Positions 11,377 through 28,868 of a stretch of DNA of 64,000 nucleotides are shown here, one piece after another. The notes beneath the pieces were generated by a model, which did not search any database, was not told where the DNA came from, and saw only the letters and a program-made list of their open reading frames with translations. Source of the stretch: Halogranum gelatinilyticum (GTDB lineage Archaea; Halobacteriota; Halobacteria; Halobacteriales; Haloferacaceae); assembly GCF_900103715.1 (NCBI RefSeq), contig NZ_FNHL01000001.1, positions 787,295-851,294 on the forward strand. Direction: 5' to 3'. A program made the translations under genes and the position numbers. Position 1 is the first letter of the stretch. Every line of letters begins with the position of its first letter.

Positions 11377-12464
11377 CTCGTGTCTTCGAGGTCCTCCGTA
11401 GCGGCACTGAAGACGTCCTCCGGGGTAAGTGATACGGCGTCCCACGCGGGCAGCCGCGTGTCGAGTCCGGGCGCGCGCAGAGCGTCGGCGTAGACGCCGA
11501 CCTGCTCGGTCTCGCCCGCGTGGTCGTAGTCCAGCCCGTTGAACGCGGCGTCGACGGCGTACTGCCGGACGAATCCTTCGGCCGTGTCGCGGTAGGCGTC
11601 TCCCAGCGCGTCGTAGTCGATGTCGACGCCGTGGGACTCGACGGCCCGAAAGAGCGTCGCGCCGACGGAGGCACTCATCTCCGAGAGGCCGGTCGGGCCG
11701 CCGACGGAGCGGTGGTCGTGTTCGTAGGCCCCGAGGTCGACCTGCGCACTGCCGTCGAAGCCGACGGCGTCGAAGGCGTCACAGAGCGTGCTGACCTCCA
11801 GCCCCCAGGTTCGGGCGAGCCGGAGCTGGCGAATCACGTCGCTCGTGGCGGCGAACTCGCCGGCCAGCGCGTAGCGGAACGCGTCGAGGTAGTCGAGCAG
11901 GTCGGCGTCGTGCTCGTCTGCGAGCGTCCGGACGAGCGGCGCGTAGAAGAGCCGGAAGAGCCGGCCGTAGAGCTTGTTGTCCTCGACGCGGGCGTAGTAG
12001 CCCTTCGAGAAGCCGTGGCCGTGTGCGAGCGGGAAGAGCAGGCGAGGGACGTAGCTGCGCGAGTAGGTCTTCGTGTCGGCGTCGTGGACGACGACGTACT
12101 GCTCCGACAGGGCGCGGCCGAGTGCGAGCCAGACATCCCGGCCCTTGCCGCGCTCGCCGTCGAGGTCGTGGTCGGCGAGTAGGTCGGCGACGCGGGGGCC
12201 GTCACACCACAGCACTTCCAGCGGGAGGTCGAACGACGACAGCCAGTCGGCGAAGGGACCGGCCTTGTCGGCCGAGGCGCGGAGCGGCACGACGACGCGT
12301 GCGGGGTCGACGGCTTCCAGCTCCGTGAGGACGCGCTCGGCGGCGAGTCCGTTGTACTCGCGTTCGGTCATGGGGACGACTACGGCCGCCTCGTCGGTCG
12401 GGGCATCCGGAGTCGGGTTCCGCAGGTCGTGGAGCGTCGTGACTCGCTCCTGGACGTACTCCAT
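11373..12464 (-). CDS. Family 2-like glycosyltransferase, GpgS-like
   Basis: 363 residues. The catalytic metal motif DADTKTY follows a VVVHDAD strand, and the N-terminus AAVVVPMTEREYNG fits the nucleotide-sugar site of GT-A enzymes. The C-terminal half (EVSTLCDAFDAVGFDGSAQVDLGAYEHDHR) resembles glucosyl-3-phosphoglycerate synthases (GT81), which act in glucosylglycerate or mannosylglycerate osmolyte synthesis; that assignment is tentative. The first gene of a three-gene operon; its stop overlaps the next start (ATGA, 11373-11376). Confidence 0.75.
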   Translation of the reverse strand: MEYVQERVTTLHDLRNPTPDAPTDEAAVVVPMTEREYNGLAAERVLTELEAVDPARVVVPLRASADKAGPFADWLSSFDLPLEVLWCDGPRVADLLADHDLDGERGKGRDVWLALGRALSEQYVVVHDADTKTYSRSYVPRLLFPLAHGHGFSKGYYARVEDNKLYGRLFRLFYAPLVRTLADEHDADLLDYLDAFRYALAGEFAATSDVIRQLRLARTWGLEVSTLCDAFDAVGFDGSAQVDLGAYEHDHRSVGGPTGLSEMSASVGATLFRAVESHGVDIDYDALGDAYRDTAEGFVRQYAVDAAFNGLDYDHAGETEQVGVYADALRAPGLDTRLPAWDAVSLTPEDVFSAATEDLEDTR

Positions 12465-16500: not shown

Positions 16501-17400
16501 CTAGGCTGTTTTTCCAGCGCGGTACGCATCGATGGCCGCGCGGTAGCCCTCGCGGAACGTCGGATACCGGAACTCGTAGCCGAGGTCCCGTAGCTTCTCG
16601 TTCGAACAGCGCTTGCTCGTCAGAATCCGGCGACGTGCGGCCTCCGAGAGGTCGCCCGCGGCCAGTCGCTCCTCGTTGGTCCGCTTTTCGGGTTCCGGGA
16701 CTCCACACTCGTCGGCAAGCCAGTCGGCGAAGGCCCACTTGTCGACCGGCTCGTCGTCGACGACCATGACGACCTCGCCGCGTGCGAGGTCTTCGGTCAG
16801 GAGGTAGGCGACGGCTCCGGCCGCGTCCTCGCGGTGGACCATGTTCAGATAGCCCTCCGTGACCGGGCCGTCGATGTACCGCGAGAGGCGGTAGCGGTCC
16901 GGGCCGTACAGCCCGGCGAAGCGGGCGACGGTGCCCTCGATGCCGTGGTCGGCGGCGACCTCGCGGGCGACGCGTTCGGCCTCGACGAGGACGCGCGTCT
17001 TGTCGGTCGTCGGCTCCAGCGGCGTCGACTCGTCGACGAAGTCGCCGCCGTGGTCGCCGTAGACGCCCGTACTCGACGTGTAGACGAGTCGTTCGGGTGG
17101 GTTCTCGCGGGATGCGAACCCCTCGATGGCAGTAGTGAGCCCGTCGACGAAGACGCGCTGGGCGGCGTCGGCACCACGGCCGCCCGAACTAGCCGCGAAG
17201 ACCAGCCAGTCGACGTCCGGGACCGCGTCGAGCGAGTCAGGCTCGGTGACGTCGGCGCGGACCGCCTCGAACCCCGCGTCCTCGATGGCAGCCAGCCCCT
17301 CGTCGGAGCGGCGGACGCCGACGACGTCGTGGCCCGCGTCGGTCAGCTGGCGGCCGAGTTCGAGACCGACGTAGCCACAGCCCAGAATCCCGACGCGCAT
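16501..17400 (-). CDS. NAD(P)-dependent epimerase/dehydratase-like protein (YeeZ-like)
   Basis: 299 residues with an N-terminal dinucleotide-binding loop GILGCGYVGLELGRQL and the extended-SDR features LVYTSSTGVYG and RFAGLYGPDR. The usual catalytic YxxxK is not in its standard place, as in the YeeZ/SDR-like group. It shares a TAATG overlap (17398-17402) with the 143-residue gene upstream, so the two are translated together. Confidence 0.8.
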   Translation of the reverse strand: MRVGILGCGYVGLELGRQLTDAGHDVVGVRRSDEGLAAIEDAGFEAVRADVTEPDSLDAVPDVDWLVFAASSGGRGADAAQRVFVDGLTTAIEGFASRENPPERLVYTSSTGVYGDHGGDFVDESTPLEPTTDKTRVLVEAERVAREVAADHGIEGTVARFAGLYGPDRYRLSRYIDGPVTEGYLNMVHREDAAGAVAYLLTEDLARGEVVMVVDDEPVDKWAFADWLADECGVPEPEKRTNEERLAAGDLSEAARRRILTSKRCSNEKLRDLGYEFRYPTFREGYRAAIDAYRAGKTA

Positions 17401-17831
17401 TATCGGTCCTTCCGTCGGGCGATGAGTCCGTGGATGGCCGCGAACTCGGCGAGGCTGAACCGCGAGCGGCCCTCGATGGCCTGTTGGACCTCCTGACCCG
17501 TCAAATCGACCTCGATGTTGGCGGCGATGGTGTCGACGTCGAGGACGGCGGTCGTCATGCCCATCAGGATGTGGTCGCGCAGTTCGAGGACGATACCGCG
17601 CTGGTCGGGGTAGCTCTCGGAGAGCGCGAGGACGGCGGCGGCCTCCTCGACCGAGAGGTCGGCCACGTCGCCGTCGACGATGGCTTCGACGGTCGCTTCG
17701 TCGAGGTCGGTTCCGGCGACGACGGCGTCGACACCGAGCGCGTCGACGACGGTGCGGAGTTCGTCGGCGTAGGTCGAAAGCAGCTCGTCCGGCGAGAGCG
17801 TCTCGGGCTCGTCGGCTGCGTCGTACAACAT
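17400..17831 (-). CDS. DUF5791-like haloarchaeal protein (143 aa)
   Basis: 143 residues, all-helical and acidic: two similar helical segments (DELLSTYADELRTVVDALGV; EEAAAVLALSESYPDQRGI) followed by EGRSRFSLAEFAAIHGLI. I recall this as the DUF5791 family of haloarchaea. No catalytic residues stand out. Its stop overlaps the start of the epimerase-like gene (TAATG). The downstream end of the eight-gene filament-like operon lies 117 bases upstream of its start, same strand. Confidence 0.7.
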   Translation of the reverse strand: MLYDAADEPETLSPDELLSTYADELRTVVDALGVDAVVAGTDLDEATVEAIVDGDVADLSVEEAAAVLALSESYPDQRGIVLELRDHILMGMTTAVLDVDTIAANIEVDLTGQEVQQAIEGRSRFSLAEFAAIHGLIARRKDR

Positions 17832-17948: not shown

Positions 17949-20900
17949 CTACTCGGCGTGACACGCGCGGTCGGCCCTTCCGTCGCCGGCTCGGACACAG
18001 CCCGGCCCGTCTTCCCATCCCGACGACCGTTCGTCGGCGTTGCCGTCGACGTCGCCGACCCAGCGGCCGCCCGGCGCGGCGGTGAACGCGGCGGCGTGCG
18101 CTTCGAAGGAGATCCGCTCGCTGCGACCCAGCCGCTCCGCGCTCCCGTCGTCGTCGACATCGAGCGTGACGGCCGAGCCGTCGCGGACGTACTGCAGCGT
18201 CGACCCGCTGCCGTCGCCCGTGCCGGTGTGTGCGCGGACGGTGAACCGCAGATACGAGCCTTCGACGGTGACCCACCAGAGGTTGACCGTCGCGTACCAG
18301 TAGCCCGGTGCGGGCGCGACGGGCAGTCCAGCGGGAACGCCGTCGACCGACTGGGACAGATACCGCTTCGCCCCGCGCTTTCCAGCCCCGGCGGCCGCGT
18401 CCTCGACGGCCTTCGTCGCGTACTTCTCGGCCGTCTTCCCGGCGTAGTCGCGGACGACGCTCCCCGTCTCGTTCGTCCGGTCGAGGGGGACGGCCGCCCG
18501 CCGACTGTTCACCTCTCGGCCGAGGGTGACGCGCAGCCGCGTCCGCAGCCGGTCGGTCTCGTGAGCGGTCAGGTCGTCGCGAGCGCGGACCTCGGCGGCC
18601 AGTGCCGCGGCGAACGAGCCGTTGGCGACGGCGAGCGCGCGGTGGCCCGTCCCGTCCCAGCGAGCCATCGCGTCGCCGACTGCGTTCCGGTACGCTCGCT
18701 CGGAGAGGCTCGTCTCGGCGACGACGACGCCGCGCGTCTCGCGGGCGACGGCGACGACCGACCCCTGCACCGACGCCTGAAGCCGGTCGCGACGGTCGCG
18801 CAGCGTCGCGTTGGCCGTCCGGTCGAGCGTCCGGTTCGCCGCGACGAGCGTGCTGCCCGCGCTCCGGAGGTCGACGGTCGGCTCCGAGCGGACCGTCGAC
18901 CCCAACACGTCCATCCCGTCGCCGTACGGGACGGCGAAGACGTTGATGTTGCGGGCGGCCAGCGGCCGGTAGCTGGCGTTCTCGGGGACGGCAGCGACGT
19001 GCTCGTTCGAGACGGTCGACAGCGTCAGATAGCCGGGCGAGCCGTCGGGGACGAGCGTGACGGTCTCGTTCGGCCCGCGATCGCCCACTGCGCGGTAGCC
19101 CACCGGCTCCACCTCGTCGCCCGCGTCGAGCGTCCGTGACGCGCCGTCGGCTGAGCCGAGCGCGGTGTCGCCGAGCGCGTCGTCGACGACGCCGCTCGTC
19201 TCGCGCTGGGCGTCCGCTCGCGCATCGAGTTCGGCGAGGACGCGGTCGAGGTAGGCGACGCGGGCGGCGACGCGTGCCCTGTCGGCGACGCCGTCGTAGC
19301 TGGCGGGCGCGTCGACGAGCGAGGCGCGCCGTTCGCGGAGCTTCGCGGCGAGCAGCGCGGGCGGGTTCGCCTCGCCGAGTGCGACGTCGCGCGTCGACAC
19401 GGTGACGGTGGTGCGACGGACGCGCTCGCGGAGGTCGGCGAGGTCGGCGTAGACCCACCGACGCAGGTCGTCGGGGCGGTCGCCGTGAAGTACCACCGTC
19501 TCGTCGTCGAGGCGGCCGTCGGCGACGCGGCGGGCGAGCGAATCGCGGTCGGCGTCGAGCAACCGGTCGGTCGCGCGGGCCGGGACTCCCGCGAGGTTCG
19601 GGCCGTCGAGCGCGCCACCGCGTTCGAAGGACGGCCGTACCGGCCGTTCGGGTGCTGTCCCGTCGGGGTCGTACTCCCCCGTGACAGTGACCCGAACGCG
19701 GTACTCGTCGCGCCACGCGCCCCGCGTCCGACGCGTCTCGTTGCCACGTCGCCAGGTTCGGACGACGCTGTGGTGCTCCGTGACGCGCCGACCGAAGGCT
19801 GCGAACCGCTCGCTGCCGACACGGCTGGCGGTCCCGGCGGGACCGTCGACGCGGTAGTGCGAGTCGTGGTCCTCGTCGACGAGCGTCCAGTTCGACCCCG
19901 GCGAGTCGGCCGCCGGTTCGTCGCCCGCGCGGAGCAGGTCGACGTCGGTTCGCAGACGTGTCTCGGTGCGGTACGAACCTCGAAGCGTCCCGGCGAACGA
20001 TCTGCCACTCCTTCCCGCCAGCAGGTCCGCGAAGGCGACGTCGGCGGTGCGGTTGACGCCGACCGTCATCGTCCGGTTCTCTCCCCGATTCGCCCCGGCG
20101 AGTTTCGGCGGCGCGCCGGTTCCCACCGGGTCGATTGGCGCAGGCGGGTAGGTCCGCTCCGTGACGCTCCCGAGCTTGCTCGACGTGACGGCGTGAGCGT
20201 CTTGGAGCGCGACGTGGCTTCTGGCCCACTGCAAGCCCCACCGAGCCTGCGGGTCGTCGCGGCCAAAGACGGCTCGCTGGGTCGCGAGCGCGCCGCCGTT
20301 GGCCGTCACCTCGACGTGGCGGTTGCCGAGAACGTTCGAGATTGGTGCGTTCGCCAGTTGCCCCGCGCTCCGCGCCCAGACGACCGGGGCGAGTCGGGCG
20401 GTCAGCTGGCGGCCGAGTCCCGGCCCGTCCTCCGGCTCGCGGTTCAGCCGCCGTTCGTACTCGGTCGTCCGCTGGTGGGCGAGGAGGACGGGCGTTCGGA
20501 CGGTCAGAACCACTGTCTCGGTCTCGCTGGCAACGACGGTTTCCCCGTCCGTCTCCGTGTCCCTGTTCGCCTCTGGCTCCCCGTCGTCCCCCGCATCGAT
20601 CGGCGGACGCCACGCCGTCGTCGTCAGATTCCGGACGGTCACGCGGAGTGCGGTGCCGTTCGCGGCCTGCTCGATACCGACCCGGCGTTTCGCCGCGGCG
20701 AGGTCGGCGGCGTCGTCGACCGGCGGCAGTGACGTCGCGGCGACGACGCCGGATGTCCGGACGCGCGTCGCACCGAGCTGTTCGTAGGCGGCGAGATAGA
20801 CGCGAATCCGGAGCGCGTCGCGGAACGGCGTCGACTCGTTGAGTGCGCGACCGGCGGGCGTGTCGGCCCGTTCCGTCACGGGATTCCGAGCAGCGTCGCG

Positions 20901-21098
20901 GGCGGCGTCTTTCACCGCCGACCGGAGCGCGCTCGATGTCGACGCCGAGGCGCGGTCCATCGCCGTCGCGACGCTGTCGTCGTGGCGGAGCGGCCCGCCA
21001 GTCGAGAGCGTCGTCGCGTAGGTCGCGCTGCTGACGAGGAGGAGGACGCCGAGGAGCGCGAAGGGAATCCGCGCCCGGCGGTCGTCGGCGAGTCTCAC
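17949..21098 (-). CDS. Large N-anchored surface protein of the filament-like operon (1049 aa)
   Basis: 1049 residues from GTG 21098, which overlaps the upstream stop (GTGA); another GTG lies at 21107. The N-terminus RLADDRRARIPFALLGVLLLV is a charged stretch followed by one membrane helix, as in type IV pilin-like precursors. The rest is extracellular-looking: acidic, Thr/Arg-rich, with many N-x-S/T sites (NRTA, NETR, NVTA-like) and no other clear membrane helix. No known enzymatic domain is seen. It is the last gene of the operon. Probably a cell-surface or tip/minor-pilin component; the function is unknown. Confidence 0.7.
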   Translation of the reverse strand: MRLADDRRARIPFALLGVLLLVSSATYATTLSTGGPLRHDDSVATAMDRASASTSSALRSAVKDAARDAARNPVTERADTPAGRALNESTPFRDALRIRVYLAAYEQLGATRVRTSGVVAATSLPPVDDAADLAAAKRRVGIEQAANGTALRVTVRNLTTTAWRPPIDAGDDGEPEANRDTETDGETVVASETETVVLTVRTPVLLAHQRTTEYERRLNREPEDGPGLGRQLTARLAPVVWARSAGQLANAPISNVLGNRHVEVTANGGALATQRAVFGRDDPQARWGLQWARSHVALQDAHAVTSSKLGSVTERTYPPAPIDPVGTGAPPKLAGANRGENRTMTVGVNRTADVAFADLLAGRSGRSFAGTLRGSYRTETRLRTDVDLLRAGDEPAADSPGSNWTLVDEDHDSHYRVDGPAGTASRVGSERFAAFGRRVTEHHSVVRTWRRGNETRRTRGAWRDEYRVRVTVTGEYDPDGTAPERPVRPSFERGGALDGPNLAGVPARATDRLLDADRDSLARRVADGRLDDETVVLHGDRPDDLRRWVYADLADLRERVRRTTVTVSTRDVALGEANPPALLAAKLRERRASLVDAPASYDGVADRARVAARVAYLDRVLAELDARADAQRETSGVVDDALGDTALGSADGASRTLDAGDEVEPVGYRAVGDRGPNETVTLVPDGSPGYLTLSTVSNEHVAAVPENASYRPLAARNINVFAVPYGDGMDVLGSTVRSEPTVDLRSAGSTLVAANRTLDRTANATLRDRRDRLQASVQGSVVAVARETRGVVVAETSLSERAYRNAVGDAMARWDGTGHRALAVANGSFAAALAAEVRARDDLTAHETDRLRTRLRVTLGREVNSRRAAVPLDRTNETGSVVRDYAGKTAEKYATKAVEDAAAGAGKRGAKRYLSQSVDGVPAGLPVAPAPGYWYATVNLWWVTVEGSYLRFTVRAHTGTGDGSGSTLQYVRDGSAVTLDVDDDGSAERLGRSERISFEAHAAAFTAAPGGRWVGDVDGNADERSSGWEDGPGCVRAGDGRADRACHAE

Positions 21099-22015
21099 GC
21101 CGACCACGTCCTGACGACGACGGTCACCTCGTCCACCCGCACGTCCGCGGCCGCCGCCTCGGGGGTGTCGTAGGCCTGCCGCAGGTCGTACTCGACCGCG
21201 CGGGCGACGGCGTCGGTCAGTCGCTCGTTGGCTGCCTCGGGATGAATCTCGCCGTCCCGGCCGACGACGTCGACGCCGAACAGCCGCCCCATCCGCCGGT
21301 AGCGGTACTCGGCGAACCGCGAGACGGGGTAGTCGCCGCGAAGCGCGAGCTGGAGGTCGTCGGCGGGGAACAGCCCCGCGACGACGCGTTCAGCGACAAC
21401 GGTGGCGACGGCGGTGAACCGTTCGTCTTCCTCTGCTCCTTCCGCGGCGTCGACCGCGTCGCTCCGTGCCGACGGCAGCCCGCTCGGGACCGTTACTCGG
21501 GTCGCGTGAACCGCGGCGTCCGGCGGCGGCGACGAGCCGACCGTCACACAGCCGCGGAACTGTGAGCCTCGGTGCGGCTGCCACCGAGTCACGACCTGGA
21601 CGGCCGTCTCCGTTCGTCCTGCCTTCCCCGTTCGACTCCCGCGCTCTACCTCGGCGGCGACCCGCTGACTGACCGCCGCCCGCAACCCGTCGCGGGTGTG
21701 CGTGAGCCGGTCGCCGCCGACCGCGACGCCGCCGACCGCGGCCTCGGCGAGGAGTGTCGCGGGCGTCCCGCGGGCGGTCCGGTCGAACTCGGGACCCTCG
21801 GCCGTCGGGAACGCGACGACCGCTTCGTCGGCCCGGCGCGCGCCGGGCGACAGGCTGTAGTTCACCGTCGCGGTCGTCGTCGTGAGCAGCGTCGCGACGG
21901 CGTCGGCCTCGGTCTCTCCGGTCGGCTGGGTCGCCTCGGGGACCGTCACGAGCGTCACGGCCGACGCACTGACGAGCAGGAGACACAGCCCGACGTCGAG
22001 TGCCGCGCTCGTCAT
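21095..22015 (-). CDS. N-anchored protein of the filament-like operon (306 aa)
   Basis: 306 residues from ATG 22015, which overlaps the upstream stop (ATGA, 22012-22015). Starts MTSAALDVGLCLLLVSASAV, a single N-terminal membrane helix with almost no cytoplasmic part, then an extracytoplasmic domain with two lone cysteines besides the one in the helix (FRGCVTVG is one of them). The C-terminal VDEVTVVVRTWSA is a beta strand typical of pseudopilin-like tails. No family-level function is known to me. It overlaps the 1049-aa gene by 4 bases. Confidence 0.7.
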   Translation of the reverse strand: MTSAALDVGLCLLLVSASAVTLVTVPEATQPTGETEADAVATLLTTTTATVNYSLSPGARRADEAVVAFPTAEGPEFDRTARGTPATLLAEAAVGGVAVGGDRLTHTRDGLRAAVSQRVAAEVERGSRTGKAGRTETAVQVVTRWQPHRGSQFRGCVTVGSSPPPDAAVHATRVTVPSGLPSARSDAVDAAEGAEEDERFTAVATVVAERVVAGLFPADDLQLALRGDYPVSRFAEYRYRRMGRLFGVDVVGRDGEIHPEAANERLTDAVARAVEYDLRQAYDTPEAAAADVRVDEVTVVVRTWSA

Positions 22016-22422
22016 CGCCAGACCACCACCTGCAGCCGGCCGGGCCGTATCTGTCCCGAGCCGACTCGGACGCCGACGCGTCGGCTTGCCGTCTGTGTCG
22101 CCTCGTCCTCCGGCGGCGTCGGTCCCGCGGTCCACCGCTGGCCGTCCGCGCGGACGCTGACGTGCAGTCCGTAGCCGTCGGGACCGGCGTCCAGTGCGCG
22201 CTCCTCACGGACGGGGTCGAGGATGCCCGTCGTCGATATCGCGTGCTCGACGCGGTCGAGCGTCGGCCCGGCCACGTCGCGCTCGCTCCCGAGCGACGTT
22301 GTCACGTCCGAGAGCACGCCAGCGTAGAGGCTCACACCTACGCAGACGGCAAACAGCGCGACGAGCGCGACGACCGGCTCGGTCTGGCCGCGAGTCTCCT
22401 CAGGCGTCGACCAGCGTGACAT
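22012..22422 (-). CDS. Pilin-like protein with class III-type signal (136 aa)
   Basis: 136 residues. The N-terminus MSRWSTPEETRGQTEPVVAL continues as a hydrophobic stretch (VALFAVCVGVSLYAGVL). A charged leader, an RG pair, then Q-x-E before the helix is like archaellin and pilin precursors cleaved by the prepilin peptidase PibD after the glycine. The mature part (~120 residues) is a small beta-rich domain. The 23-base overlap with the gene upstream means tight coupling. A structural or minor pilin is the best guess. Confidence 0.7.
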   Translation of the reverse strand: MSRWSTPEETRGQTEPVVALVALFAVCVGVSLYAGVLSDVTTSLGSERDVAGPTLDRVEHAISTTGILDPVREERALDAGPDGYGLHVSVRADGQRWTAGPTPPEDEATQTASRRVGVRVGSGQIRPGRLQVVVWR

Positions 22423-22870
22423 CCGTCTCCCCCCACGAGACGCGCCGGACGACGAGCGTCCGGTCGACCGTTTCCCACGTCGGTTCGCGCGTCCGCGCCT
22501 CCACGACCGCCTGGTGGAACGCTCGCTCGGACTCGAAGACGGTCGACGGCGGCTGACCGTAGAGCACCCGTTGGAGTGCCGAGCCGTCGGCCACGGGCGT
22601 CACCGGGCCGAACGCGTAGGCCGCGTGGACCGTCCCGGCGTCGTTCCGCAGGCTCACTCGGTGCGGGCCGAGTTTGACCGCACTCGCGTCGAGCGGATGT
22701 TCGGCCGTCGCGACGTGGTCGCCCGCGGCGAGTCGGTCGACCGTGTTGGCGACGGCGTTCGCGTCCGGCGGCGGCGTCGTCGGCAGCGACGAGACGACCC
22801 CGAGCAGCGCGACCCCCGCGAGTGCGAGTCCGATCCAGCTGTACCAGGCGTCGAGTGGCACGTCAAACAT
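22400..22870 (-). CDS. N-anchored pseudopilin-like protein (156 aa)
   Basis: 156 residues. Starts MFDVPLDAWYSWIGLALAGV, a short leader and one membrane helix ending near residue 30 (VVSSLPTTPPP), followed by a ~120-residue domain with conserved-looking VKLGPHRVSLRNDAG. There is no RG-Q style cleavage site, so it may keep its leader. A gap of 34 bases separates it from the TadC-like gene upstream, the largest gap between these two blocks of the operon. Function unknown. Confidence 0.65.
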   Translation of the reverse strand: MFDVPLDAWYSWIGLALAGVALLGVVSSLPTTPPPDANAVANTVDRLAAGDHVATAEHPLDASAVKLGPHRVSLRNDAGTVHAAYAFGPVTPVADGSALQRVLYGQPPSTVFESERAFHQAVVEARTREPTWETVDRTLVVRRVSWGETDVTLVDA

Positions 22871-22904
22871 GGGCTGGGGTGGCCGCGTCTCCGTATTTAA
22901 ACTC

Positions 22905-24752
22905 TCAGACCAGTAATCCCGCGGCGACGACGGCGGTGAGGTAGGTCGTCGTCGCCGCCAGGAGTGCCAGCCCGACGCGGTAGCCGACGAGCGCGAGGTC
23001 GACGCCGTGCTCTAGTCCCACTGCGAGCGCGGTTAGGACGGCCGCGAGGACGAGCACGTAGACGCCGACGGCCGTCCCGAGCGCGCCGGTCGCGAGCGGG
23101 TCTGCCGCGGCCGCGAGCGAATCCGCGGAGGCAGACGTCGCGGCCGACGTCGCCGACCCACCGAGCCGTCCGCCCTCGCCGCCTGCGTCGACGCTTCCCA
23201 TCCGGTCGGCGAGCGTCACGGTCGCACCGCCGACGAGCGGCGCGAAGACCGCGGCGGTGTTCGCGAGCGTGCTCGTGACGGCAGCCAGTTCCTGGCGCGC
23301 CTCGCGGTCGACTTCCCGGAGCGATTCGAGCTGGTCGGCCATCGCGACGATGGCACTCCCGGCGGGCTTTCCCTGGGTCGCTGCGAGCGCGAGAAACGCG
23401 GCCATCCCACGGGCGCGGTCGCTCGGTACGTTCGAGAGCGCGCCGTGGCGGCCGAGGAAGGCGTCGCGGACGCCGACGCGGAGGGTCCGCTGGACGCGGA
23501 CGGCGTCGTCGAGGAGGTCGCCGGTCGCGCCGCCGACCTCGTCGCCCGCGTGGACGAGTGCGGTCTCGACCGCCGTCCCCTCCGCGACGCGTCGGCCGAC
23601 GAGGTAGAGCGCGTCCGGGAGACTCGACTCGACGGCGCGGACGTGGTCGCGGACGGCCTTCACCGGATAGAAGCGGACCGCGAGTGCCACGCCGACACCG
23701 CCGCCGACGCTGGCGACGGCTCCCGCCCAGCCGACGAGCGTCGAGCCGACGAGCCAGCCCGCCGCTGCGGCGACCGCGCCAGCGACCAGCGCGCGCCACG
23801 GCCGGGTGGGGACGTCGGGATGGCTGCGGGAGACGCGCGGCGGCGGGAACGCGACCGGCCGACGGAGCAGGAGCCATCCAGCGGCCGCGACGAGTGCCAG
23901 CGGCAGGAGCACGTCGTAGAGCACGACGACGACGGGGAGCGAGACGGGGACGCCGGCGACGCGTGCCGCCGGGAGGACGCCGACGAGTGCCAGCGGCAGG
24001 AGGACGCCGAAGGCGTAGACGGCGGTGGCTGGCCCACGGATTTCGGCGGCGAACGTCGCCATCCGCTCGCGGGTTCCGTCGAGGACCGCCGAGAGTGCCC
24101 GGTCCAGCGAGCGGGCGCGTTCGTCGTCCGGGGCCGACGCACTCGCCGTCAGGAGCGCGACGGACCGGTCGAGCGCGGGAAACCACTCGGACCACTCGCG
24201 GGCGAAGCCGTCGAACCCGCTCTGTGGCGTCCCGGTCGCCCGGCGGACGTGCTCGGCGAGGCTGTCGGCGAGCGGTCCCTCGCCGGTCCGTGCCGCGAAC
24301 CGCGCCGCCCGCTCGGCCGTCGGGTCGATACGTAATCGGAGGACCGCACGGCCGACGAGTCCGGCCGTCGCCCCCAGCGCGCGCGTCCGTCTCGCACTCG
24401 CCGCGAGGACCGGCGCGCGGTGGACGCCGTGGGCCGCGAGACCGGCGGACGCGAGCGCGACGGACCCCACGAGACCGAGGGAGGTTGGGGAGCCGAGAGA
24501 ACCGAGAGCACCAAGAGAGCCGACGGCAACGCCCGCGACGACGACCCCGAGCACACCGCAGACGACGGCGGCTCCGTAGCCCGCGCGGACGACGGTCTCC
24601 GCTCGGACGTCGGTGTCGAGATAGCCGAGCGAGCGGACGAGTTCCGTGCTCGGGTCGACCGGCCACGGATAGAGGCGAGCGAGCGTCTGCAGCAGCGTCC
24701 CCGTCGCCAGCGCGACGAGTCCGCGCTCCGACCCGGCTGCGTGCGCACTCAT
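22905..24752 (-). CDS. Type II/IV secretion system F (TadC-like) membrane protein
   Basis: 615 residues from ATG 24752, overlapping the ATPase stop (ATGA). It has two copies of the GspF/TadC helical unit: residues ~110-290 and ~350-540. The second includes FYPVKAVRDHVRAVESSLPD then ALYLVGRRVAEGTAVETAL, and a LAATQGKPAGSAIVAMADQLESL stretch, the usual T2SSF signature. About eight to nine membrane segments are seen. In known machines this protein is the inner-membrane platform that couples the ATPase to pilin insertion. Loop regions are Gly/Ser/Ala-rich. Confidence 0.85.
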   Translation of the reverse strand: MSAHAAGSERGLVALATGTLLQTLARLYPWPVDPSTELVRSLGYLDTDVRAETVVRAGYGAAVVCGVLGVVVAGVAVGSLGALGSLGSPTSLGLVGSVALASAGLAAHGVHRAPVLAASARRTRALGATAGLVGRAVLRLRIDPTAERAARFAARTGEGPLADSLAEHVRRATGTPQSGFDGFAREWSEWFPALDRSVALLTASASAPDDERARSLDRALSAVLDGTRERMATFAAEIRGPATAVYAFGVLLPLALVGVLPAARVAGVPVSLPVVVVLYDVLLPLALVAAAGWLLLRRPVAFPPPRVSRSHPDVPTRPWRALVAGAVAAAAGWLVGSTLVGWAGAVASVGGGVGVALAVRFYPVKAVRDHVRAVESSLPDALYLVGRRVAEGTAVETALVHAGDEVGGATGDLLDDAVRVQRTLRVGVRDAFLGRHGALSNVPSDRARGMAAFLALAATQGKPAGSAIVAMADQLESLREVDREARQELAAVTSTLANTAAVFAPLVGGATVTLADRMGSVDAGGEGGRLGGSATSAATSASADSLAAAADPLATGALGTAVGVYVLVLAAVLTALAVGLEHGVDLALVGYRVGLALLAATTTYLTAVVAAGLLV

Positions 24753-26794
24753 CGTTTGCGACCCCTTCCCCGACCCCGGTACGCCGCCACGACGTCGTCC
24801 GGGCGCGTCCGGCCGGTCGTCGCCAACGCCGCCAGCCCTTTCTCGCGCTCGTCGAGCAGTCTCCGCAGGTCCGCGTAGGACTCGTCGGCACGGGTGAGGT
24901 CGGCGACGAGCGTGCTGTTGCCGCGGGCGACCGTCCCGGTCGGCTCCAGGCCGTAACCCGTGCGCTCGAACAGCGACGCGAACCGGACGCCGTCGTCGGT
25001 CGTCCGCACCTCCTCGATGCTGGCGACGTGTCGGGAGTCGCCCGCAGCGCAGGTCACGAGCAGGTCGGTCGCGCCGAAGGAGGACTCCGGCACGTCGAGA
25101 TCCGAGACGACCCGCTCGCGGACCGCCTGCCCTCCGTCGCCGTGGATGGTCCCGAGGACCGCACTCCCGCTCGCGCCGACGCGCATCGCCTCGTAGAGCG
25201 TCGCGGCCTCCTCCCCGCGGACCTCGCCGACGACGAGGGCACCTTCGCCGAGTCGGAGCGCGGTCCGGAGTGCCTCCGTCGGCGTCAGCGCGGCCCCGTC
25301 GTCGCTGCCCGCGTAGAGCGGCTGAACGTCGCGGCCCTGCGTCTGCAACGCGTCGACCGGCAACTCGGGGGTGTCCTCGATGGTGACCGTCCGGGTCCGC
25401 GCGGGCAGTTCCCAGAGGAGCGCGCCGAGCAGCGTCGTCTTGCCCGCGCCGCGCGCGCCAGCGACGAGACCGGCGGCGGCGCGTTCGACGGCGACAGAGA
25501 GCACCGCCGCCGCGTCGGCCGGGAGCGTGTCGTTGGCGACGAGTGCCGGAAGCGTCCACGCCTCGGCGTCGTGTCGGCGGAAGGCGAACCCGAGTCCGTC
25601 GCTGGCGGGCGCGCTCACGCCAGCGACACGGACGCTGCCAGCCTCGCCGTCGACTGCGGCGTTCTCGCCCACGTCGACCACGGCGTCGATGGTCGGCGTC
25701 GCCCGGGAGAAGGGCTTGCCGCTCGTCCGTCGGAAGCGCGAGGCGAGCGTCGCCACCCCGCCGGGCGTCAGCCGGACGTTCGTCGGGACCGTCTCGCCGT
25801 CGACGGTGACGCGGACCGGGTTCTCGGTCACGGGGGCGGTGACGAAGACGTCGGAGACGCGCGGGTCGGCGAAGGGGTCTTCGAGCACGCCGTGGCCGCG
25901 GGTGTAGGTCGCGAGTTCGCCCGCCAGCGTCTCGACCGGCTCGTCGTCGTCGGCGACGGCTCGGACCGCCCGCCCCGGTGCGCGAGTCCCGCCTTCGACG
26001 CCGCCGTGTGCCAGCCGTTCTTCGGCGGCCGCGAGCGTCCGCGTCGACCGGTCGTCGAGCGTGTGTGCGACGGGTTCGAGATGATACTCGCGGCCGTCCC
26101 CCGCGCGGTCGTAGAGTCTGACGGTCGCTCCCGTGTCGAGCGACCAGCGGTCGACGAGCGTGGCGTCCGGCGGCGTCGCGAGTCGGACGTGCGCGCGGGC
26201 GACGGTCGGACCGACGAACGGGGCGAGCGCGTGGCCGTATCTCCCGACATCCGCCTTGTCGGCGGTGTCGTCATGATCGGTGTCGGTGTCACGGTCGCTG
26301 TCGTCGTCTCCGACGCCACCGTCGTTGCCGTCGCCGTCGCCGCCGCCGACAGCGGCAGCGACCTCTGCCAGCCCCGTCTCGGCGGCGATAGTCGCCGTCG
26401 CGTCGGCCCGGCCGCGGGCGTCGTGGGCTGCCCCGAGCGGGTCACGCCGGGCGCGCTCGGCGAGCCGTTCGTCGTGGAAGGCGGCGCGTTCGACGAACCG
26501 ACCGGCGGCGAGCAGGAGTGCTGCGGCTCGGTCCGCGTAGGTCCGCTCGCGGCCGCCGGAGACGCTCCGGACCACGTCGGCGTCGCGGTCTGCGAGTGCG
26601 TCGACGACGGTCGCTCGGCACTCCGGCGACGCTGCGAGGTCGCCACGGCCGGGACAGCCGTCGGCGTCGACGACGAGTTCCACCCGGTCGCCGACGGCGG
26701 TCCCCGTCGGCTCCTCGAAAGAGCAGAGACACTGACAGTCGGCCGTCGACGCGCCGTGGAAGCGGTCGGTGAGGTCGGACAGACGCGAGAGCAT
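24749..26794 (-). CDS. Type II/IV secretion system ATPase (GspE/TadA-like)
   Basis: 681 residues. Motifs: Walker A GARGAGKTT (446-454), Asp box TIEDTPEL (471-478), Walker B ALVVGEVRGEE (519-529), His box TIHGDG (549-554). This is a complete secretion hexamer ATPase that drives assembly of pili, archaella or Tad machines. N-terminal residues 1-60 hold five cysteines (20, 22, 24, 47, 59), unusual for a haloarchaeal protein and suggesting a metal site. Residues 150-182 are a Gly/Asp linker. A gap of 54 bases separates it from the small gene upstream. Confidence 0.9.
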   Translation of the reverse strand: MLSRLSDLTDRFHGASTADCQCLCSFEEPTGTAVGDRVELVVDADGCPGRGDLAASPECRATVVDALADRDADVVRSVSGGRERTYADRAAALLLAAGRFVERAAFHDERLAERARRDPLGAAHDARGRADATATIAAETGLAEVAAAVGGGDGDGNDGGVGDDDSDRDTDTDHDDTADKADVGRYGHALAPFVGPTVARAHVRLATPPDATLVDRWSLDTGATVRLYDRAGDGREYHLEPVAHTLDDRSTRTLAAAEERLAHGGVEGGTRAPGRAVRAVADDDEPVETLAGELATYTRGHGVLEDPFADPRVSDVFVTAPVTENPVRVTVDGETVPTNVRLTPGGVATLASRFRRTSGKPFSRATPTIDAVVDVGENAAVDGEAGSVRVAGVSAPASDGLGFAFRRHDAEAWTLPALVANDTLPADAAAVLSVAVERAAAGLVAGARGAGKTTLLGALLWELPARTRTVTIEDTPELPVDALQTQGRDVQPLYAGSDDGAALTPTEALRTALRLGEGALVVGEVRGEEAATLYEAMRVGASGSAVLGTIHGDGGQAVRERVVSDLDVPESSFGATDLLVTCAAGDSRHVASIEEVRTTDDGVRFASLFERTGYGLEPTGTVARGNSTLVADLTRADESYADLRRLLDEREKGLAALATTGRTRPDDVVAAYRGRGRGRKR

Positions 26795-26848
26795 GGGCCG
26801 CGGTGGCCGCGGCTTCGTACTTGAAGCTGTGGTCGGACGTCCGGTGTC

Positions 26849-27304
26849 TCACTCTCGCGCGACGACGACGGCGACGCTCCCGTCACGACGGGTGAGCGTC
26901 AGCGTCAGTCGGTGCCGTCCGGTCTCGCGCAACACCAGCGGCCCGTCGGCGACGACGAGCGGGACATCGAGGCGGACGCGTCGCTGGCGGCCGTTGTCGA
27001 GTTCGTAGCCCACCATCGGCCGTCGACAGCCCTCACCGTCACGGCAGCCGACCCGTATCGCGTCGACGCCAGCGGCCGTCCACGACCGTGCGGGGACGGA
27101 AACCGAGAGAACCCGGCGGGCACCGGGGACCCCCGAGACCGTGGCGTCGTCGTCGTCGACCAGCGAGGTGGCAGCGGCCGAGAGCCGTGCCATCTCCCCG
27201 TCGAGGTGGGCCGCTGTCCGGTCGGCGCGGGCACTGTCGACCGCCGGGAGCGACGTGGCGAGGAGGGCGGTCGCGACGGCGACGGCGACGACGACGCGGA
27301 TCAC
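26849..27304 (-). CDS. Small secreted/anchored protein of the filament-like operon (151 aa)
   Basis: 151 residues beginning MIRVVVAVAVATALLATSLP, an N-terminal membrane or signal segment with almost no cytoplasmic leader, then a helix (ADRTAAHLDGEMARLSAAAT) and a beta-rich C-terminal domain with a CRDGEGC pair that may form a disulfide. This layout recalls Tad-type minor pilins. It overlaps the coiled-coil gene upstream by four bases (27301-27304). I recall it as a haloarchaeal DUF family; function unknown. Confidence 0.65.
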   Translation of the reverse strand: MIRVVVAVAVATALLATSLPAVDSARADRTAAHLDGEMARLSAAATSLVDDDDATVSGVPGARRVLSVSVPARSWTAAGVDAIRVGCRDGEGCRRPMVGYELDNGRQRRVRLDVPLVVADGPLVLRETGRHRLTLTLTRRDGSVAVVVARE

Positions 27305-27711
27305 AGGACGCGCCGAAGCCGCGAGGCGAGGTCGTCGTCTTCGGTCCGTTCGGTGCTGTCGTCGTCGACTCCAGCGTCCGCGTGCCGTGTCTCGGCTGCA
27401 GGCAGGTCGAGGTCGTCGACGGTCGGCCCGTCGCTCACCTGTTCGGCGACGGCTTCGGCCGTGGCGAGCGCGGCGTCGGCTCGCCGTTCGACGTCGCGGT
27501 TGACGGCGCGGACGCCGCCGACGTAGCCGCGGACGGCCTGGACGGCGGCTTCCAGTTCCGTGAGCCGCTCGTCGACCGTCTCGGCCCGTGTTTCCAGTTC
27601 GGTAAGTCGTCGTTCGACGTCGGCGGCGTCCGAGAGGTCGTCGACCGCCGTCTCGCCGTCGGTCAGCGCGCGTTCGACCGCGTCGAGTCGCTCTGTGAGG
27701 TCGTCAGCCAT
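27301..27711 (-). CDS. Coiled-coil protein, first gene of the filament-like operon (136 aa)
   Basis: 136 residues without a membrane helix. Residues 1-70 are a heptad-rich coiled coil (LTERLDAVERALTDGE; ERRLTELETRAETVDERL; TELEAAVQAVRGYVGG), the rest acidic and disordered-looking, ending ASRLRRVL. As the first gene of the eight-gene operon it could be a cytoplasmic adaptor for the ATPase, but this is inference from position only. It is divergent from cetZ2, with a 77-base shared promoter region; an AAAAACC tract (~27735-27743) lies about 27 bases upstream of its ATG. Confidence 0.65.
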   Translation of the reverse strand: MADDLTERLDAVERALTDGETAVDDLSDAADVERRLTELETRAETVDERLTELEAAVQAVRGYVGGVRAVNRDVERRADAALATAEAVAEQVSDGPTVDDLDLPAAETRHADAGVDDDSTERTEDDDLASRLRRVL

Positions 27712-27788
27712 GGCCGGTGGTGGCCCCGTTTTCGCAGAAAAACCTTCGCGGGGGAACGTTCAAGGGGGGACCGGCCAACGTGTCACTT

Positions 27789-28868
27789 ATGAAGACCGTC
27801 CTGATTGGTGTCGGCCAAGCCGGCGGCAAGCTGGCGACCTCCCTCGTCGAATTCGACGACCGTATGGGATTCGACGCGATCACCGGCGCGCTGGCGATCA
27901 ACAGCGCGAAGGCAGACCTCCAACCCCTCCCCCTCGAAACCGTCCTCGTCGGCCAAGACAAGGTCAACGGCCACGGCGTTGGCGGCGACAACGAACTCGG
28001 CGCGGAAGTGATGCAGTCGGACGCCCGCGAAGTCATGGGCGCGCTCGACGGCAACATTACCGCCGCGGCCGAGGCCATCGTCGTCGTCGCCGGACTCGGC
28101 GGCGGCACCGGCTCCGGCGGCGCGCCCGTCGTCGTGAAAGAACTCCAACGCGTCTACGACGTGCCCGTCTACGCGCTCGGCGTCCTCCCCGGCCGCGGCG
28201 AGGGCGCGATGTTCCAGGTCAACGCCGGACGGTCGCTCAAGACCCTGGCCCGCGAAGCCGATTCGGTGCTCCTGGTCGACAACGACGCGTGGCGTTCCTC
28301 CGGCGAGAGCATGGAAGAGGGCTACGACGCCATCAACGAGGCCATCGCCCGCCGCGTCGGCCTGCTTCTCGCCTCCGGCGAGGCCGTCGAAGGCGTCGGC
28401 GAGAGCGTCGTCGACTCCAGCGAGATCATCAACACGCTCCGTTCTGGTGGAATCGCCTCGCTGGGATACGCCAGTGCCGAAGCCGGGGAAGACGCCGCCG
28501 ACAACATCAACACCGTGATGAGTACGGCCCGCCGCGCGCTCTTGACCGGGGCGAGTCTCCCCGACGCGACGACGGCCGATTCGGCACTCGTCGTCGTCGC
28601 CGCCGAGTCGGACCGTATCCCGCGGAAGGGCGTCGAACGCGCGCGCCGCTGGATCGAGGACGAGACCGGCAGTATGCAGGTCCGTGGCGGCGACTTCCCG
28701 CTCGGGAGCGAACGGATCGCGACGCTCGTTCTCCTCGGTGGTGTCGAGCGGTCGACGCGGGTCGAACAGTTCATCGAGCGCGCGAAAGAGGCGCGTGAAG
28801 AAGCGAAACAAGAGCGACAGGACCCGAACACCGCCTTCGCCAACGACGAGTTGGACTCGCTGTTCTGA
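27789..28868 (+). CDS. cetZ2: CetZ tubulin/FtsZ-superfamily GTPase, CetZ2-like
   Basis: 359 residues from ATG 27789. N-terminal MKTVLIGVGQAGGKL is the first nucleotide-binding loop; GGGTGSGG (104-111) is the tubulin/FtsZ signature that binds GTP phosphates; NDAWRSSGESM and VDSSEIINTL follow as in CetZ proteins. CetZ proteins are archaeal tubulin relatives that control cell shape and motility; the sequence MKTVLIGVGQAGGKL and the ending fit what I remember of CetZ2 better than CetZ1. C-terminal ~30 residues are charged and end NDELDSLF. Divergent from the filament-like operon. Confidence 0.85.
   Translation: MKTVLIGVGQAGGKLATSLVEFDDRMGFDAITGALAINSAKADLQPLPLETVLVGQDKVNGHGVGGDNELGAEVMQSDAREVMGALDGNITAAAEAIVVVAGLGGGTGSGGAPVVVKELQRVYDVPVYALGVLPGRGEGAMFQVNAGRSLKTLAREADSVLLVDNDAWRSSGESMEEGYDAINEAIARRVGLLLASGEAVEGVGESVVDSSEIINTLRSGGIASLGYASAEAGEDAADNINTVMSTARRALLTGASLPDATTADSALVVVAAESDRIPRKGVERARRWIEDETGSMQVRGGDFPLGSERIATLVLLGGVERSTRVEQFIERAKEAREEAKQERQDPNTAFANDELDSLF

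Follow-up and report, generated by a model that had tools for sequence, protein, structure and literature searches.

A cetZ2-linked PilB2/C2 operon in Halogranum gelatinilyticum, a probable type IV filament assembly machine

A stretch of 64 000 nucleotides from Halogranum gelatinilyticum (NZ_FNHL01000001.1, positions 787 295 to 851 294; hereafter the window) carries, at 17949–27711 on the - strand, an operon of eight genes. It probably specifies a complete machine for assembling a type IV filament, namely the cetZ2-linked PilB2/C2 system, with the features of subclade 4F. Judged by sequence, the operon brings together a VirB11/CpaF-type ATPase, a platform protein and five envelope proteins that each cross the membrane once, and the best reading is that of an assembly motor for an envelope filament resembling a type IV pilus or pseudopilus, with two unusually large, non-classical subunits. 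This was indicated by family matches, eight-gene synteny and class III-type motifs in orthologues, and by leaders in methanogen relatives, the co-occurrence of DUF7286 with the ATPase and a single supported ATPase group. It was also indicated by a peptidase and a DUF7311-like protein near the methanogen ATPase locus, and by the prior description of the system as a predicted type IV pilus. A first-pass annotation had proposed a separate type IV filament or secretion device built from an ATPase, a TadC/GspF-like platform protein and six unassigned proteins. The type of machine and, from the ATPase tree, its separateness were upheld, but its novelty was not, as by its cetZ2-type neighbour, flanking genes and component features the locus is another member of a catalogued and widely conserved pilB2/C2 system beside cetZ2, rather than an undescribed one.

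The eight frames reported earlier are all present. Gene starts were picked by orthologue alignment, not from the mechanical frame list, and the genes are given here in operon order (5' to 3', high coordinates first), with lengths in amino acids (aa) and E-values of the family matches.

27301..27711, - strand: DUF7310, 136 aa, cytoplasmic coiled coil, operon gene 1 (Pfam PF23991, E 2.1e-31)
26849..27304, - strand: DUF7311, 151 aa, leaderless, pilin-like (PF23993, E 4e-49)
24749..26794, - strand: PilB2, VirB11/CpaF-type secretion ATPase, 681 aa (PF00437, E 2e-18)
22905..24752, - strand: PilC2, TadC/GspF-like membrane platform, 615 aa (T2SSF, E 0.13)
22400..22870, - strand: DUF7283, 156 aa, N-terminal hydrophobic helix (PF23954, E 1.9e-58)
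22012..22422, - strand: DUF7285, 136 aa, class III prepilin-like start (PF23956, E 3.8e-40)
21095..22015, - strand: DUF7284, 306 aa, corrected start (PF23955, E 1.4e-89)
17949..21098, - strand: DUF7286, 1049 aa, anchored, extracytoplasmic (PF23957, full length)

Among the window proteins, every operon product except PilC2 exceeded the curated Pfam cut-off. The tight packing noted at first pass is real, with overlaps of 4 bases (DUF7310/DUF7311, PilB2/PilC2, DUF7285/DUF7284 and DUF7284/DUF7286) and 23 bases (DUF7283/DUF7285), but gaps of 54 bases (DUF7311/PilB2) and 34 bases (PilC2/DUF7283) give three gene groups instead of the two blocks described. The most likely start of DUF7284 is the ATG at 22015 (306 aa) and not the mechanically listed GTG at 22135, while DUF7286, the last gene of the operon, starts with GTG at 21098 and has the length of 1049 aa given at first pass. 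Five of the six proteins originally left unassigned have, as claimed, a single N-terminal hydrophobic helix, the exception being DUF7310, in which no hydrophobic window was found. Neither a prepilin peptidase gene nor an SPVI-type pilA lies inside the operon, again in agreement with the earlier account, and a single peptidase-family gene (Peptidase_A24, E 1.4e-12) is found elsewhere in the genome. Pfam and NCBIfam scans detected no PilA-family major pilin among the operon proteins, the remaining genome not having been searched for one, and the operon contains no second, retraction-type ATPase.

Neighbourhood comparison, one of the checks proposed at first pass, revealed that the whole cluster is kept across haloarchaeal families, and the grouping of these genes is therefore not a chance observation. 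DUF7286 was present in 224 of 292 Halobacteria genomes. The 40 neighbourhoods and 80 named loci compared here were both selected through DUF7286; the sampling was not random, and the conservation they display is conditional on that gene. Each of the other seven genes was detected in 39 or 40 of the 40 neighbourhoods, with PilB2 and PilC2 both found in all 40. All eight genes occurred together in 69/80 among the named loci listed, 52 of those 69 also having cetZ2, and several of the 11 incomplete loci are interrupted by contig ends. A cetZ gene lay within the fetched locus in 30/40 neighbourhoods and in 53/80 of the named loci listed. Residue conservation was strong in DUF7286, and Haloferax volcanii carries marker families of the system. 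Two haloarchaeal loci, L188 (Haloglomus irregulare) and L160, hold the DUF7283-DUF7285-DUF7284-DUF7286 part with PilB/PilC not nearby.

In one genome (G012; locus L090, ~11542–12318), a C-terminal remnant of DUF7286 lies between cetZ2 and an arCOG04674-like gene; nothing else of the operon is left, and the genome has no PilB2-type ATPase. The operon has been deleted here and cetZ2 spared. The idea of a recently acquired mobile element (PMC9856176) is a poor fit with this stump and with the methanogen homologues described below, and loss explains G012 better.

The N-termini of the envelope proteins were scored from sequence with our own, somewhat loose, motif patterns. DUF7285 possesses a class III prepilin-like start, RG|QTEPVVALVALF (beginning RG|QTEPVVALV), and the motif recurs in 39/40 and 78/79 orthologues, making this protein the best candidate filament subunit. 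DUF7286 has an N-terminus of the type R[AG]|RVPFALVGVLLL, which reads RA|RIPFALLGVLLL in the window protein, and the R[AG]|RVPF-type start was seen in all orthologues (40/40 and 79/79). An R[AG]|VSTVLD-type start of DUF7284 was restricted to 19/40 and 19/79 orthologues and is lost in the lineage of the window (MTSAALDV). The first-pass annotation had described these proteins as having little or no leader, which holds for DUF7311, whose hydrophobic helix begins at residue 1, and for DUF7283, but overlooked the start of DUF7285. No class III motif was found in DUF7311 or, from alignment of its N-terminus, in DUF7283. Profile-profile comparison of DUF7285 with DUF7283, DUF7311 and DUF7284 gave no significant match that would indicate paralogy.

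Also overlooked at first pass was that apparently leaderless proteins, such as DUF7311, do have relatives with leaders, in methanogens. DUF7286 homologues were found in two further families of the phylum by the same search that recovered a Methanosarcina acetivorans control, and it is upon this control and the literature that the label 'methanogen' is based for these families. In six methanogen loci, homologues of DUF7285 and DUF7284 and two small proteins were located at or near DUF7286 in matching order, and most of these counterparts of the pilin-like set have charged leaders ending in K/R-G/A. DUF7311 matched the first small methanogen protein by hhalign (96.4 %, E 1.3e-9), the alignment beginning ~19 columns into a methanogen protein with a class III-like leader, such that the haloarchaeal protein is the one without it. 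The protein at the position of DUF7283 gave a lower score (15.7 %), and its pairwise E of 0.0017, compared to ~0.3 for crossed controls, weakly suggests homology.

The methanogen ATPase/platform pair sits at a locus separate from the pilin-like set. Seven genomes each have one ATPase that matches the PilB2 of the window at ~238–254 bits, with the others at ≤67 bits. Across 148 genomes of the phylum, DUF7286 and this ATPase were both present in 33 and both absent from 113, with one genome having only the DUF7286 stump and one only the ATPase. Outside the Halobacteria the corresponding figures were 15 with both, none with DUF7286 only, one with the ATPase only and 108 with neither, and in the loci examined there the two genes are unlinked. 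These counts give extreme results in Fisher tests, but the genomes are related and not independent, and the p-values should not be read at face value. This near-perfect co-occurrence shows DUF7286 and the PilB2-type ATPase to be inherited together even where they are unlinked. A genome with this ATPase and no DUF7286 (G412, locus L205) has an ATPase frame of 683 aa, shorter than in most relatives.

Near the methanogen PilB/PilC genes, one locus (L199, 11950–14094) encodes a prepilin peptidase of the Peptidase_A24 family together with a HerA-like ATPase and another DUF7311-like protein. The gene directly downstream of methanogen PilC encodes a small protein whose prepilin-like start reads RG|VEGLPV or AG|VEGLPV (L203, 3555–4145; L199, 5788–6291) and which displays weak matches to Ig-like domains; this protein is a candidate major pilin of the system.

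The motor proteins were compared with characterized relatives. PilB2 has a Walker A motif, GARGAGKT, at residue 446, and its core (residues ~288–579) is homologous to CpaF/TadA and VirB11 ATPases (PDB 8rkd, 9e24, 2oap and 2gza), with 2oap and the CpaF structures 8rkd and 9e24 as its solved relatives. Unlike these relatives, it has an extra N-terminal region of 280 residues, and it falls far below the curated cut-offs of the TadA, VirB11 and FlaI models: it scored 67.9 bits against 550 for the FlaI equivalog (archaellum) and 117 against 373 for TadA (TIGR03819), and likewise 27.8 against 630 for the GspE equivalog (type II secretion). Cysteines C20, C22, C47 and C59 in the N-terminal region are conserved, forming a CxC...C...C pattern in the sampled haloarchaeal orthologues, and the methanogen orthologues have 10–14 cysteines in their first 300 residues, compared to 0–7 in other ATPases. 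PilC2 matched T2SSF at E 0.13 in the window and at 5e-5 at best among 13 orthologues, and its gene adjoins that of the PilB2-type ATPase in both haloarchaea and methanogens. In the ATPase tree, seven methanogen and nine haloarchaeal sequences grouped together at 100/100 support, and the 23 other superfamily ATPases fell outside this group. Long branches were flagged in this tree, its root and outer placement are unreliable and it contains no sequence labelled 4F by Makarova et al. Nevertheless, the ATPase supports the PilB2 system being separate from the other such systems of the genome.

The identity of the locus as the cetZ2-linked pilB2/C2 system follows from its cetZ2-type neighbour, its flanking genes and the features of its components, which match two published descriptions (PMC9856176 and PMC4858521). 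The neighbouring genes in question are as follows.

27717..28868, + strand: cetZ2-type tubulin-like gene, transcribed divergently from the operon (PF21011 CetZ_C, E 2.7e-64)
17400..17831, - strand: flanking gene, probably arCOG04674 (predicted transcription factor), outside the machine, kept in 39/40 loci
16501..17400, - strand: flanking sugar epimerase/dehydratase-like gene (probably arCOG03095), outside the machine, kept in 35/40 loci

The two arCOG labels were taken from the neighbourhood in PMC9856176, as was the designation of the tubulin-like gene as cetZ2-type; its likely ATG (MKTVLIGVGQ...) is at 27789, within the listed frame. Beyond it lies a phosphodiesterase-like gene, and the opposite flank holds the arCOG04674-like gene, the epimerase and a DHH-type protein. 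Brown & Duggin (2023; PMC9856176) reported that cetZ2 adjoins a pilB2/C2 type IV regulon in Haloferacales and Halobacteriales. As in the window, that regulon consists of a pilB/pilC operon by cetZ2 that also encodes one surface protein and several predicted pilins, flanked by epimerase, arCOG04674, exopolyphosphatase-like and phosphodiesterase genes, and there was no material difference in gene content, arCOGs being matched by description and not by number. Subclade 4F of Makarova, Koonin & Albers (2016; PMC4858521) is described as having an ATPase with a Cys-rich N-terminus whose locus also holds a coiled-coil protein and a large, surface-layer-like one and lies next to an FtsZ-like gene. All of these have counterparts in the window, where DUF7310 corresponds by description to the coiled-coil component (arCOG07564). 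Occurrence in both haloarchaea and methanogens is also shared. However, the major pilin assigned to 4F belongs to the PilA family, is mostly stand-alone and encoded elsewhere, and is not in the window operon. A further paper (PMC6491452) assigns H. volcanii PilB2 to subclade 4C instead, at odds with the 4F features of the window. The PilB1-C1 system of Haloferax volcanii (HVO_0620/0619) and Halobacterium pil-2, both 4C in the literature, are likewise haloarchaeal pilB-pilC operons with small pilin-like genes of their own, but have another pilin set (PMC4858521) and are set apart from the window by their descriptions.

The system has thus been described already, although the literature searched contained no mutant, filament or other experimental study of the locus. 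Of the refuting condition set at first pass, homologues known as a characterized Pil cluster, one half therefore applies (the description) and the other, experimental characterization, does not within that literature. A search by DUF numbers and by the H. volcanii tags HVO_0739–0751 turned up no work on these genes; the paper on HVO_0739 deals with the target of a cell-division regulator.

Structure prediction, also suggested at first pass, covered DUF7284 and DUF7286, and found no significant solved relative for either. The AlphaFold2 model of DUF7286 had a mean predicted local distance difference test score (pLDDT) of 82.7 and a predicted template modelling score (pTM) of 0.72, with its N-terminal helix poorly modelled; that of DUF7284 had a pLDDT of 92.0. 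Family profiles of both proteins matched nothing significantly among the sequences of solved structures, and a second structural aligner returned nothing at Z ≥8. Resemblances to SecB- or hotdog-like folds (parts of DUF7286) and ribosomal S3-like folds (DUF7284) were weak (Z <8), unrelated-looking and uninformative. A missing fold match is no proof of a new fold.

Several observations weigh against a filament assembly machine. In its model, DUF7284 consists of an alpha/beta globular domain joined by a disordered linker to a short membrane helix, a predicted shape unlike that of a classical pilin with its long, uninterrupted N-terminal helix. Foldseek matched neither large protein to any structure at E ≤0.001, solved pilins and pseudopilins included. 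DUF7283, DUF7311 and the DUF7284 of the window are without a usable prepilin leader and, for this reason, may not be filament subunits. Finally, no PilA-type major pilin is encoded within the operon and no filament has been seen.

The main rival to the filament reading is an export device of the pseudopilus type, like that of type II secretion. PilB2/C2 would cycle a short stub of DUF7285, DUF7283 and DUF7311 that pushes substrates out, DUF7284 and DUF7286 would form a fixed envelope part and a long filament would never form. An operon that encodes several small proteins with one membrane pass, two large ones and no PilA-type major pilin is in keeping with such a device, as is the lack of a reported filament in the literature searched, and leader loss in some subunits fits fixed components. 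However, haloarchaea have a surface layer and no outer membrane, which removes the usual reason for a secretin-gated pseudopilus; neither a substrate gene nor an outer channel is evident at the locus. Where related archaeal systems have been studied, they produce pili (PMC6491452 and PMC4292770), and we consider an export device unlikely, albeit a genuine contender.

Alternatively, PilB2/C2 may assemble PilA-type major pilins encoded in trans, with the operon proteins serving only to initiate, anchor or cap the pilus. The H. volcanii pilB3-C3 operon works with PilA pilins whose genes lie in trans (PMC6491452), and the mostly stand-alone PilA-family pilin assigned to 4F (PMC4858521) points in the same direction. 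Yet DUF7285 has a class III-like start and is constant in the operon, and our analysis linked no specific trans pilin to the system; this explanation appears quite unlikely. Improbable, too, is a cytoskeleton-coupled envelope device that is not a pilus, in which most of the 'pilins' would now be permanent leaderless or non-classical envelope proteins, positioned by CetZ2, with the 1000-residue DUF7286 of unmatched fold as the business end. Hardly any weight can be given to a decaying, mostly cryptic pilus operon under loss in haloarchaea: the absence of DUF7286 from 68/292 Halobacteria genomes, the lone stump beside cetZ2 in G012 and the eroded leaders of some subunits would agree with it, but the eight window frames are intact, most named loci retain all eight genes and DUF7286 residues are strongly conserved.

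In the filament assembly machine that we favour, a PilB2 hexamer would convert ATP hydrolysis into movement of PilC2, which would draw DUF7285, once processed by the prepilin peptidase encoded elsewhere in the genome, out of the membrane and add it to a short filament or pseudopilus. DUF7311 and DUF7283 would serve as minor subunits, and a tip or an envelope-spanning part may consist of the two large proteins, DUF7284 and DUF7286. DUF7310 would connect the ATPase to the cytoplasm and possibly to the CetZ2 cytoskeleton, a link suggested by gene neighbourhood. The likely outcome, as predicted from these sequences, is a surface or envelope filament for attachment or envelope organization.

In summary, our study adds to the existing descriptions the co-occurrence of all eight genes, the prepilin-like starts, the methanogen split with its ATPase/DUF7286 co-occurrence and the G012 stump. 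DUF7286 and DUF7284 yield confident models that have no significant solved relatives, and approximately three quarters of the sampled Halobacteria genomes carry DUF7286, often beside a tubulin-like gene.

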